From Alphaproteobacteria bacterium (GTDB lineage: Bacteria; Pseudomonadota; Alphaproteobacteria; SHNJ01): a stretch of DNA of 57,163 nt. Location of the stretch: positions 1 through 57,163 of the forward strand of contig SHNJ01000026.1 of assembly GCA_004295055.1 (NCBI GenBank), read 5' to 3'. Position numbers and translations under genes: made by a program. The stretch's first letter is position 1, and every line of letters begins with the position of its first letter. Below, one piece after another: positions 25,480 to 29,598 of the stretch. The notes under the pieces are model-generated. The model searched no databases, was not told the DNA's origin, and was given only the letters and a program-made list of their open reading frames with translations.

Positions 25480-25485
25480 AAAGAA

Positions 25486-25576
25486 AGGGTATAGCGTATG
25501 GGGTAGTAGGGTAATAGGGAAAACTTAGGCAGAAAATACCACCCTATTACCCTATACGCTACTACCCTATTACCCT
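25486..25576. repeat. GGGTA/TACCC inverted repeat
   Basis: The left arm (25486-25519) is built of AGGGTATAGCGTATGGGG and TAGTAGGGTAATAGGG. The right arm (25541-25575) contains CCCTATTACCC twice with TATACGCTACTA between. The arms pair around a loop of about 20 bases. It lies between rpsD and the phosphatase gene, both on the minus strand, and may act as a terminator or processing site. Similar in style to 21411-21475 and 33199-33276. Confidence 0.6.
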
Positions 25577-25580
25577 TAAC

Positions 25581-26371: not shown

Positions 26372-26644
26372 ATGACTCAGTTCCAACAACCTACTTCCAC
26401 GCTTGCAGAGTGGCGTACAGAAGATACTGTAATGGCCCTAGCAACCAGCGGGGCGATAGGTGTTTTTGTAGTGCCTATATGCGTTACATTAGGTCCTGTT
26501 GTAAGCCAAATTTTCGAGATCAATAACAATGCACCTACATGGGTTGCAGGTGCCGCCAGTGCTGTTATTTCCGCCGGTATGGGATTTTTCGTGACAAGCT
26601 TAGTCAACATTTCTGTACCCCAAGGCCACAGCAGAAGCAGATAA
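26372..26644 (+). CDS. Small unknown membrane protein
   Basis: 90 residues with two hydrophobic segments (about 21-47, ending in VTLGPVVSQIF, and about 55-82, AGAASAVISAGMGFFVTSLV). A GAGGG sequence lies 7 bases upstream. The C-terminus is short and basic (HSRSR). No family recognised. The next gene starts 2 bases later with a similar size and layout, so the pair may form a complex. The base composition is richer in A+T than rpsD and trmJ on either side. It has its own promoter. Confidence 0.6.
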   Translation: MTQFQQPTSTLAEWRTEDTVMALATSGAIGVFVVPICVTLGPVVSQIFEINNNAPTWVAGAASAVISAGMGFFVTSLVNISVPQGHSRSR

Positions 26645-26645
26645 G

Positions 26646-26909
26646 ATGACAAGAATAAATTCCAATTATGATCAAGGAATGAGCTGGGACGATGTGGGGA
26701 TATGCCTAGCGATTGGCGTGGGTAGCGGTGTCATTGTGTCGGCTGGCGCAACTTGCTTGCGTGCTATAAACTATGTGGTAAATTCTTACTCTTTCGATGA
26801 CTTTTCGGTTTTAAGCAGAAACACTATTATACCAGGCGTTATTTATGGTGGAATAATAGCCTTGGGTCTTAGTGGCTTGATGCTATTTAATAAAAGCCGA
26901 CACCATTAA
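26646..26909 (+). CDS. Small unknown membrane protein
   Basis: 87 residues with two hydrophobic segments (VGICLAIGVGSGVIVSAGA at about 17-35 and IIPGVIYGGIIALGLSGLML at about 62-81). An AGATG context at 26643-26648 places the start right after the previous stop, so translation is probably coupled. No family recognised. Its stop codon overlaps that of trmJ on the other strand by 4 bases. Confidence 0.6.
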   Translation: MTRINSNYDQGMSWDDVGICLAIGVGSGVIVSAGATCLRAINYVVNSYSFDDFSVLSRNTIIPGVIYGGIIALGLSGLMLFNKSRHH

Positions 26910-27862
26910 TCTTTCTTTTTCAATAGCGTCGTCACCACGCCATGCAGGGTTTTGATTTCCTGCGTCGATAATCCCATGCGCGTGAACATGGCGCGCAAAT
27001 TATCAACCATGGTGGGGCGTTTTTCCGGCGGATGCAAAAATCCGCCATCATCCATCAATCCAATCAACCGGTTTAAAAATTCATCCAATTCCGCACGCGG
27101 CGCAGCGGGATCTGCCCGTGTGCCCTGCCCACGCAAACTGACCACCGATGGATCTTGTTGCGCCATTTGCAGGAATAGTTGATATCCGACCAGCAATACG
27201 GCCTGCGATAAATTCAGCGAATTGAAATCGCGCTGCAATGGAATGGTTAGGATTTTATTGGCCTTAGCGATATCCTCGTTTTCCAATCCCGCGCGTTCCG
27301 GGCCAAATAAAATGCCGATTTTTATGCTACCCTCCCCTTGAGGGAGGGTCAAAGCCGCATCGCGGCTTTGGGGTGGGGTTATTTGGCGAGACTGACCGCT
27401 TAACCCTCCCCGCTCGCCTACGGCTCGCTGCCCCTCCCCAAGGGAGAGGAATTGATTCGCTAAAGTTGAAACGATTTCCTCCGCCGCTTCTTGCAAATCA
27501 ACCACCGGCAGATTCACAAAATGATTGCGCGGCGATGTGGCATAGATGATTTGCAAATCGGCGGTCGCGGATTCAATCGAATCGAACGATTTTGTTTCGC
27601 GCAACACCTGATCCGCGCCGGATGATGCGTTAAAAGCGTTTTGATGCGGCCATTCGCATTTCGGCGCAACGATCCGCAATTGCGACAATCCGCAATTCAA
27701 CATCGCCCGCGCGGTCATGCCGATATTTTCCGGCAATTGCGGACGGACCAAAATGATAACGGGCTGTAATGCCGGATCAGGCGTTGCGACCGGCTTGTCG
27801 GCTTTACGGGATTTCGATTGCATTCCGCCAGTATTGGGCGGGGTATAAGGACGTGGGTTCAT
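26906..27862 (-). CDS. trmJ: tRNA (cytidine/uridine-2'-O-)-methyltransferase TrmJ with in-frame repeat insertion
   Basis: A SPOUT-class methyltransferase that modifies the ribose of residue 32 in tRNAs. I place the start at ATG 27862 (318 residues), because the in-frame extension to 27982 is only a translation of the upstream repeat. Family motifs: VIILVRPQLPENIGMTARAM (about 35-54), QIIYATSPRNHF (about 104-115) and the SAM-binding knot ILFGPERAGL (184-193) with RDFNSLNLSQAVLLVGYQ further on. Residues 138-179, 42 codons, are encoded by an intergenic-type palindromic repeat (27326-27451) that lies in a variable stretch before the knot and keeps the frame. The first 30 residues are a low-complexity extension. 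Probably still functional, since all core motifs remain. Confidence 0.88.
   Translation of the reverse strand: MNPRPYTPPNTGGMQSKSRKADKPVATPDPALQPVIILVRPQLPENIGMTARAMLNCGLSQLRIVAPKCEWPHQNAFNASSGADQVLRETKSFDSIESATADLQIIYATSPRNHFVNLPVVDLQEAAEEIVSTLANQFLSLGEGQRAVGERGGLSGQSRQITPPQSRDAALTLPQGEGSIKIGILFGPERAGLENEDIAKANKILTIPLQRDFNSLNLSQAVLLVGYQLFLQMAQQDPSVVSLRGQGTRADPAAPRAELDEFLNRLIGLMDDGGFLHPPEKRPTMVDNLRAMFTRMGLSTQEIKTLHGVVTTLLKKKD
27329..27450. repeat. Palindromic repeat (copy 2) inside trmJ
   Basis: Begins TACCCTCCCCTTGAGGG followed by AGGGTCAAA, then a GCCGCATCGCGGC palindrome, TTTGGGGTGGGG, and an inverted second half ending CCCTCCCCAAGGGAGAGG. The first half matches 27873-27934 outside the central palindrome. 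It adds 42 codons to trmJ. The signature peptide is LTLPQGEG. Confidence 0.8.
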
Positions 27863-27872
27863 AATAATTCTT

Positions 27873-28032
27873 TTACCCTCCCCTTGAGGGAGGGTCAAAC
27901 ACTGAAGCGTAGCGAAAGTGTTTGGGGTGGGGATTGCGGTATTTTGTAACAAGAACTTAATATGTAAAGAGCCAGTCCCCACCCCAAAATCAGCGTTGCT
28001 GATTTTGACCCTCCCTCAAGGGGAGGGTAATT
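27873..28032. repeat. Palindromic repeat (copy 3) between cysS and trmJ
   Basis: Two mirror-image halves: TTACCCTCCCCTTGAGGG with AGGGTCAAA, a CACTGAAGCGTAGCGAAAGTG palindrome-like spacer in two parts and TTTGGGGTGGGG, then about 45 bases, then CCCCACCCCAAA, ATCAGCGTTGCTGAT and TTTGACCCTCCCTCAAGG to GGGAGGGTAA. The outer arms are perfect inverted copies; the inner palindromes differ, which is typical of REP-like or BIME-like units placed head to head. Confidence 0.8.
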
Positions 28033-28068: not shown

Positions 28069-29598
28069 TCAATCATACTTGTTTAACTTCCAAGTTGTTT
28101 CATTTCCAGGAAGGTCTTTTAATTCAATGCGGCATACTAATAAAAATCTTTTGATATAATCTGCGTATGAATAGTTCTTGGCTAGCTTTGCATTTTTCCG
28201 TTCATCAACAAGCTGTTTTATTACTTCTTCTGTTAACCATCTACTCTCCGCTAATTTATATAAAATAGTATAAACACGTTGATGATCATTACTCAATTCT
28301 GCATATTTCTTCTCAGCAATTAGTTTTCCTATATTCTCTAATTCGAAATTAGATAGTTCTCTGTTAATAGTTTCATCAGATAACTTATTTAATAACCCGA
28401 CTAAATTAGCGCTTGCTTTTAATTCAGCTGCTAATTTCAATCGCTTTTGTGGGTCTGACTCTTTATTTACCTTAGAAGCCATAGTATGCAGTATCATAAT
28501 TGCCGCTGGAGTATTTAGATCATCTAGTAACGCCTCCATAAACTCTTGCGAGGGAGCGACTGGAGAAGACTCAATATTTAGTTCTCCTACAGAAACATAT
28601 AGCCTATCCAATGAATTCATTGCTTGCGTAAGTAACTGATCGGTCCAATCTAAAGGTTGGTTATAACGCGCCATCAATAATGCTAAACGAATTGCCTCAC
28701 CGGGCGCTTTGGCCAAAACATCCTGCACCGTGAAAAAATTGCCCAAACTTTTACTCATCTTTTCGCCATTTACGGTCAGATAACCGTTATGCATCCAATA
28801 ACGCGCGAATGGATGCGCGTCGCACGAACATTCGCTTTGCGCGATTTCATTTTCGTGGTGCGGGAAACGTAAATCCAGCCCGCCGCCATGAATATCGATT
28901 TGATTGCCAAGCACCGCGCGGCTCATCGCCGAACATTCAATATGCCATCCTGGACGGCCACGGCCCCATGGGCTTTCCCATCCCGGCAAATCGGCGGATG
29001 ACGGTTTCCACAATACAAAATCGGTTGGGTCTTTTTTAAATGGCGCCACATCGACACGCGCGCCCGCGACCAATTCCTCGCGGGTGTTGCGGGATAATTT
29101 TCCGTAATCTTTCATCGATGGCGCGTTGAACAATACATGCCCTTCGGCTGCATAGGCATGCCCGCGATCGATCAAGGTTTGAATCATCGCAATCATATCG
29201 GCGATATGGTTGGTCGCGTGCGGCGTGTGATCGGGCGGCAAACATCCTAATGCGCCCATATCATCATTATAGTGTTTTTCAAATTTTTGAGTAATTTGCC
29301 GGATGGCGGCATTGATATCGCCCCCCTGCTGCGCCACGATTTCCTGACCCTTGGCATTAATCTTATCGTCCACGTCCGTAATGTTACGAGCGTATACAAC
29401 TTCACCCCAACGATTTTCCTTCGCCAAATGTTTCAACAAACGGTATAGAACATCGAACACGACCACTGGACGCGCATTGCCAATATGCGCGAAATCATAC
29501 ACGGTCGGACCGCACACATACATGGTCACGCGTTTTGCATCGCGTGGGATGAATTCTTCTTTTTCGCGGGTCAGTGTATTATATAAGGCTAAGGACAT
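28069..29598 (-). CDS. cysS: Cysteinyl-tRNA synthetase
   Basis: 509 residues. Class I synthetase with CGPTVYDFAHIGNARPVV (about 29-46, containing the HIGH motif as HIGN and the zinc ligand Cys29), WHIECSAM (about 229-236), GGGLDLRFPHHENEIAQSE, and the KMSKSLGNF motif (about 288-296). The C-terminal anticodon region ends LKDLPGNETTWKL, as in other CysRS. The 3' part, encoding about residues 305-509 (28069-28690), is clearly more AT-rich and uses A/T-ending codons, unlike the 5' part. That suggests a mosaic gene or relaxed drift in the anticodon-binding region. Confidence 0.96.
   Translation of the reverse strand: MSLALYNTLTREKEEFIPRDAKRVTMYVCGPTVYDFAHIGNARPVVVFDVLYRLLKHLAKENRWGEVVYARNITDVDDKINAKGQEIVAQQGGDINAAIRQITQKFEKHYNDDMGALGCLPPDHTPHATNHIADMIAMIQTLIDRGHAYAAEGHVLFNAPSMKDYGKLSRNTREELVAGARVDVAPFKKDPTDFVLWKPSSADLPGWESPWGRGRPGWHIECSAMSRAVLGNQIDIHGGGLDLRFPHHENEIAQSECSCDAHPFARYWMHNGYLTVNGEKMSKSLGNFFTVQDVLAKAPGEAIRLALLMARYNQPLDWTDQLLTQAMNSLDRLYVSVGELNIESSPVAPSQEFMEALLDDLNTPAAIMILHTMASKVNKESDPQKRLKLAAELKASANLVGLLNKLSDETINRELSNFELENIGKLIAEKKYAELSNDHQRVYTILYKLAESRWLTEEVIKQLVDERKNAKLAKNYSYADYIKRFLLVCRIELKDLPGNETTWKLNKYD

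Follow-up and report, generated by a model that had tools for sequence, protein, structure and literature searches.

BoxC/PIT palindromes were recognized decades ago in E. coli and in many other bacteria, and we know of no account of how they spread. Under the names boxC, PIT, or TM_ECO, these intrastrand triplex motifs were described in more than 260 genomes, and their sites were found to vary within E. coli (Holder et al. 2015, PMC4666352). No transposase or integrase was associated with the motifs, nor was any mobility gene found near them (PMC4666352). The E. coli protein YcjD was related to Vsr within the PD-(D/E)XK superfamily in 2005 (PMC1189080). In Caulobacter, the DUF559 protein VsrA was reported to cause DNA damage in a methylation mutant, and a role in mismatch repair was proposed (PMC12907096).

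A repeat in the trmJ gene of an alphaproteobacterium, located in a DNA stretch of 57,163 nucleotides (the window), appears by its sequence to be of the boxC/PIT triplex-palindrome type. Both share a C-rich strand, a hairpin loop, a G-rich strand, a second loop, and a G-rich third strand, in the same order, and both are dispersed, mostly intergenic, and sometimes arranged as inverted doublets; in E. coli the boxC/PIT sites are insertion/deletion polymorphic. The main family described here differs in having a variable hairpin that fills the second loop, GGGGTGGGG as the third strand, and one copy within a gene. Moreover, DUF559 genes lie between the motifs here, whereas PMC4666352 reported no mobility gene nearby. 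The published motif plan, CCCTCNCCC N3-6 GGGNGAGGG N3 GGGNGAGGG, is closely matched by many DUF559 arms and by one locus of this genome (L080, with a TTA-type loop).

The in-frame insert in trmJ

The trmJ gene (26,906-27,862, minus strand) encodes a tRNA (cytidine/uridine-2'-O)-methyltransferase (SPOUT) of 318 residues including the insert, as identified by profiles and a solved structure. The insert splits both profile matches (TIGR00050, E 2.4e-40; SpoU_methylase, E 1.2e-22) into two stretches, and the alignment with the solved TrmJ structure (PDB 5gra, E 9e-52) is broken at 130/168. The inserted palindromic element (27,328-27,451, minus strand) was identified by its arm copies, its absence in relatives, and its folding. 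It runs from a TA at 27,328 to ...GAGAGG at 27,449, with a core of 120 bp (122 bp with the TA) and an end at about 27,451, and the reading frame of trmJ is unbroken across it.

In an alignment of 27 alphaproteobacterial sequences, the window TrmJ has 56 residues in a region for which exactly 14 are found in 22 of the 26 relatives and 11-20 in the others, a surplus of 42. When it is aligned with the closest relative, a member of its family whose TrmJ is 65% identical (G001), the alignment skips from residue 136 to 175 while the target coordinates are contiguous, so that about 38 residues are absent there. No matching segment was thus present in TrmJ of the 26 aligned relatives or of G001, and the insertion is therefore sharp, as the original prediction had expected such an alignment to reveal, and lineage-specific. 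The predicted size of 126 bases holds as an upper value and not as a fixed size, given that the insert measures 38-42 residues depending on the relative compared.

Within the protein, the insert follows a helix (residues ~123-135) and precedes the strand that enters the SAM knot. Its place ahead of the SAM-binding knot segment (ILFGPERAGL) agrees with the position that had been proposed. The usual topology of alpha/beta folds would put it on the face of TrmJ opposite the SAM pocket. An AlphaFold model of TrmJ made from the single sequence, without an alignment, had a pLDDT of 35 and was unusable. Viral contigs were searched for TrmJ relatives and none were found.

The two halves of the trmJ copy are different. 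The left one (27,328-27,378, plus strand) is a standard half-element with the end hairpin TACCCTCCC-cttga-GGGAGGGT, the variable hairpin AAAGCCGCatcGCGGCTTT, and the third strand GGGGTGGGG. The right one (27,400-27,449, minus strand) is divergent and consists of CCTCTCCC-tt-GGGGAGGGG, the variable hairpin GCAGCGAGC..GCGAGC, and the third strand GGGGAGGG; its sequence is unique in the genome and its architecture is that of a standard arm. With one standard and one divergent half, the insert does not simply duplicate the intergenic element upstream.

That element separates trmJ from cysS (28,069-29,598, minus strand; TIGR00435, E 8e-142). Upstream of trmJ, the frame stays open from 27,862 to 27,982 and passes through part of the intergenic palindrome, which is why automatic annotation may start trmJ too early (at a GTG at 27,982). 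Two further observations concern the neighborhood: an unrelated second inverted repeat (GGGTATAGCGTATGGGGTAGTAGGGTAATAGGG and its near-complement) lies at 25,480-25,580 between a phosphoglycerate-mutase-like gene and rpsD, and two adjacent small open reading frames with hydrophobic stretches, to which no function was assigned, occupy 26,372-26,909 between rpsD and trmJ.

The repeat family and its architecture

The arm sequence CCCTCCCCTTGAGGGAGGG occurs exactly three times in the window, at 27,330-27,348, 27,876-27,894, and 28,009-28,027 (reverse), where none were expected from 100 shuffles. The latter two, in inverted orientation, confirm the earlier claim that the trmJ repeat is also found between cysS and trmJ. 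They belong to a complete element copy (27,873-28,030) whose 27-nt arms are 100% complementary and enclose 104 nt. Across the 1.95-Mb genome, 44 copies of CCCTCCCCTTGAGGGAGGG with at most two mismatches were counted (23 on the plus and 21 on the minus strand), and the reversed control pattern gave 0. Most arm copies form inverted pairs about 148 bp apart, and the genome has about 20 occurrences of the element; about 23 copies were examined, a number that may miss degenerate ones. With these genome copies and the intact frame, the proposal that a dispersed palindrome was inserted in frame in trmJ stands.

Read from the outside inward, each half-element consists of T(A/G)-CCCTCCC-cttga-GGGAGGG-(T/C), a variable hairpin, and then GGGGTGGGG, a third strand that is complementary to CCCCACCCC of the opposite half. 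The inner hairpins vary between copies (for example, AAAGTTGCG..AGCAACTTT, AAAATTTC..GAAATTTT, and AAAAATGC..GCATTTTT) and are mostly self-complementary, with 263 paired positions compared to 165 on average and 200 at most in 1000 swaps of the 3' halves. At the foot of the hairpin, an A/T pair covaries with G/C. When folded as a single DNA strand, the intergenic copy reached a z of -12 and the trmJ copy a z of -4.6, values that cover hairpin folding only. An outer T...A is the only constant at the element ends, and no close empty site was found in this lineage. A search of Rfam matched no RNA family at the elements. In four loci (L023, L025, L072, and L022), the second loop holds variable hairpins of about 53 nt instead of the usual ~17-19 nt, apparently a nested second repeat. 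Single-hairpin relics are present at two loci (L071 and L074).

Association with DUF559 genes and polymorphic sites

In two element copies, a DUF559 gene is located exactly at the position of the ~50-nt spacer (L069, 1326-1811; L077, 1531-2005); the first gene is intact and the second has an in-frame stop. C/G palindromes bracket each of the four DUF559 genes in the genome. At the other two loci, the arms are 38 nt long and 100% complementary (L080) or the palindromes are weaker (L078). The nuclease matches the DUF559 profile (PF04480) with E 4e-35, and D42, E53, and D55 are invariant in a 24-sequence alignment (conserved D and ExDG). A structural model with a pLDDT of 82 has 3hrl, the homing endonuclease I-Bth0305I, and Vsr as its closest folds.

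The association extends to other genomes. Taking an alignment score of at least 18 as the threshold for inverted palindromic arms, 42 of 63 alphaproteobacterial DUF559 genes (the four of this genome and 59 further ones) carry such arms, most of which lie only tens of bases from the domain, compared to a maximum score of 13 for control flanks taken around TrmJ genes of that group. A pan-bacterial set was drawn from named genomes of Proteobacteria, Desulfobacterota, Chloroflexi, Nitrospirota, Planctomycetes, Gastranaerophilales, and others. Here, 51 of 69 loci reached the threshold (about 49 of 68 once an N-run and one non-palindromic match are left out), and far flanks scored 13 at most. When flanks were swapped between loci, 5 of 187 combinations still scored at least 18 in the alphaproteobacterial set and more did so in the pan-bacterial set, because the arms are alike across genomes. 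Their commonest design is CCCTCTCCC-loop-GGGAGAGGG followed by T(T/A)GGGTGAGGGG. Clear flanking arms are missing at about a third of the DUF559 genes. On viral contigs, arms were found at most close DUF559 homologs and at none of the remote nucleases (24-32% identity). The arms on five viral or prophage contigs (L275, L285, L288, L291, and L293) have another base pattern (e.g., GGCTCCGCCCCCTacgGGGGGCGGA with GGTGGGGGCAAG), which suggests parallel sub-families.

Palindromes and nuclease also co-occur at the level of whole genomes. Among 142 alphaproteobacterial genomes, at least four palindromes were counted in 25 of 37 with a full-length DUF559 compared to 1 of 105 without (Fisher p about 1e-17, not corrected for kinship, though nearly every genome represents a different family), and at least eight in 20 of 37 compared to 0 of 105. 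The reversed pattern gave no difference between genomes with and without DUF559. A full-text literature search of papers outside subscription access returned none that joins DUF559 with palindromes.

Element sites differ between genomes. The two genes that flank a DUF559 gene and its palindromes in Sinorhizobium M103 are immediate neighbors in Shinella PSBB067, with 84% and 78% identity in the flanks. The hrpB-mrcB interval of E. coli holds a palindromic doublet in K-12, none in strains E70 and 439, and one collapsed hairpin in UTME-10; across the sequences compared at this site (L346, L347, and L348 versus L344), the boxC/PIT doublet is absent, full, or collapsed. Motif number 9 in Table 1 of PMC4666352, matched by sequence and position, is located 167 bp from ycjD, the DUF559 gene of E. 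coli K-12. Here, the triplex motif is found on one side of ycjD only and the K-12 palindromes far outnumber DUF559, which counts against a nuclease-borne element. The ycjD locus was also considered as a clean empty-site case and rejected, as strains without ycjD carry the operon eefRABCD at that position (PMC12817139).

Origin of the insert and comparison with known systems

The insert in trmJ is probably a short, non-autonomous copy of a selfish palindromic element whose full form has inverted ends enclosing a DUF559 gene. In that full form, two inverted end units, each composed of a C/G-rich hairpin followed by a purine third strand, would surround the Vsr-like PD-(D/E)XK nuclease, while short copies would have kept the ends and the ~50-nt spacer and be missing the gene. 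The nuclease may recognize the folded ends, or targets that resemble them, and cutting at the ends or at target sites might cause host repair to copy the element. The element could spread in the manner of a transposon or home into palindromes already present. Short copies would move in trans, and one of them would have landed in trmJ, where its length and frame by chance left the gene open. The data establish the in-frame insertion, the repeat family, the two gene-carrying copies, and the pan-bacterial association; the mobilization by DUF559 is our inference, and no transposition event was observed. The DUF559 genes that have no clear arms, the high scores after swapping of flanks, and the mismatch-repair role proposed for VsrA also speak against this reading. 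It appears evenly balanced whether the boxC/PIT palindromes across bacteria, including E. coli, are likewise the ends and remnants of an unrecognized class of selfish elements that spread through DUF559 (YcjD/Vsr-like) nucleases and parallel the REPIN system without RAYT, with the trmJ insert as one of their rare in-gene products. Such a tight pan-bacterial link between palindromes and a small nuclease family gives a testable role to both the repeats and DUF559 and suggests how long-unexplained repeats spread. The trmJ case is that of a palindromic element turned into part of a protein.

DUF559 could, on the other hand, be cargo or home into pre-existing palindromes instead of mobilizing them. 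The main alternative, possible though less probable, is that DUF559 is a homing-type nuclease gene that invaded palindromic doublets spread by other means and had no part in the trmJ insertion. This would fit the two gene-carrying copies in which the gene fills exactly the spacer of a normal doublet, the closest characterized DUF559 relative being the homing endonuclease I-Bth0305I, and the gene-bearing copies being fewer than the short ones. It sits less well with the restriction of palindrome-rich genomes (at least eight) to those having DUF559, and no other mobility gene is known for the repeats (PMC4666352). The REP/RAYT reading was rejected since this genome gave no match to the Y1 (HUH) transposase profile PF01797, which was matched in control genomes. 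A decaying trmJ pseudogene, with a frame left open through the palindrome by chance, is unlikely: although the insert makes up 13% of the protein, conserved motifs stand on either side of it and the frame runs open as far as its normal end. The 37 contigs of a single genome without a sister sequence could raise the suspicion of an assembly or binning artifact, which is scarcely credible for a genome that is 99% complete and 0.65% contaminated; the trmJ copy is unlike all others owing to its unique right half and is therefore not a misassembled repeat.

The original prediction had drawn a parallel to the Rickettsia palindromic elements (RPEs), which holds for a palindrome in frame in a gene and is not supported for a spread into proteins. 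That, as in Rickettsia, selection keeps the repeat translatable and it spreads through proteins is very improbable. A stop-free in-frame insertion in a housekeeping gene and a short palindrome of similar size speak for it, but trmJ is the only in-frame insertion within a conserved domain gene among ~23 element copies. In the 19 copies of ordinary size, only 12% of the frames are stop-free, and many copies have stops in all frames. Given this fraction and the need for a length that is a multiple of three, random insertion into genes would leave an open frame in a few percent of cases, so one in-frame case is close to chance expectation and special selection for translation is not needed. Membership in the RPEs was ruled out by this survey, and the comparison with Rickettsia is an analogy. 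As in RPEs, a palindromic repeat is translated in frame within a housekeeping protein; unlike them, it is a single case with no preferred or common open frame and another sequence architecture, and it appears to belong to a bacteria-wide type tied to DUF559.

Miniature inverted-repeat transposable elements (MITEs) are likewise short, have inverted ends and no coding capacity, and have larger relatives that hold a gene between such ends. Here, however, the ends are themselves hairpins, the gene between them codes for a nuclease that has no transposase domain, and no target duplication could be fixed. The Vsr-like homing endonuclease I-Bth0305I (3r3p) shares the nuclease fold of the DUF559 model (Foldseek TM 0.7) but is encoded in a phage intron, and we know of no triplex palindromes flanking it. 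REPs and REPINs with their RAYT (REPtron, BIME) resemble the present elements in their inverted palindrome pairs, in their dispersed non-autonomous copies, and in a lone nuclease gene flanked by matching palindromes, a feature met here with DUF559 in place of RAYT. They differ in that the nuclease here is Vsr-like of the PD-(D/E)XK type instead of a Y1 HUH transposase and that no GTAG tag was seen in the elements. If the proposed reading is true, DUF559 and its palindromes would form a second nuclease-palindrome partnership beside REP/RAYT.
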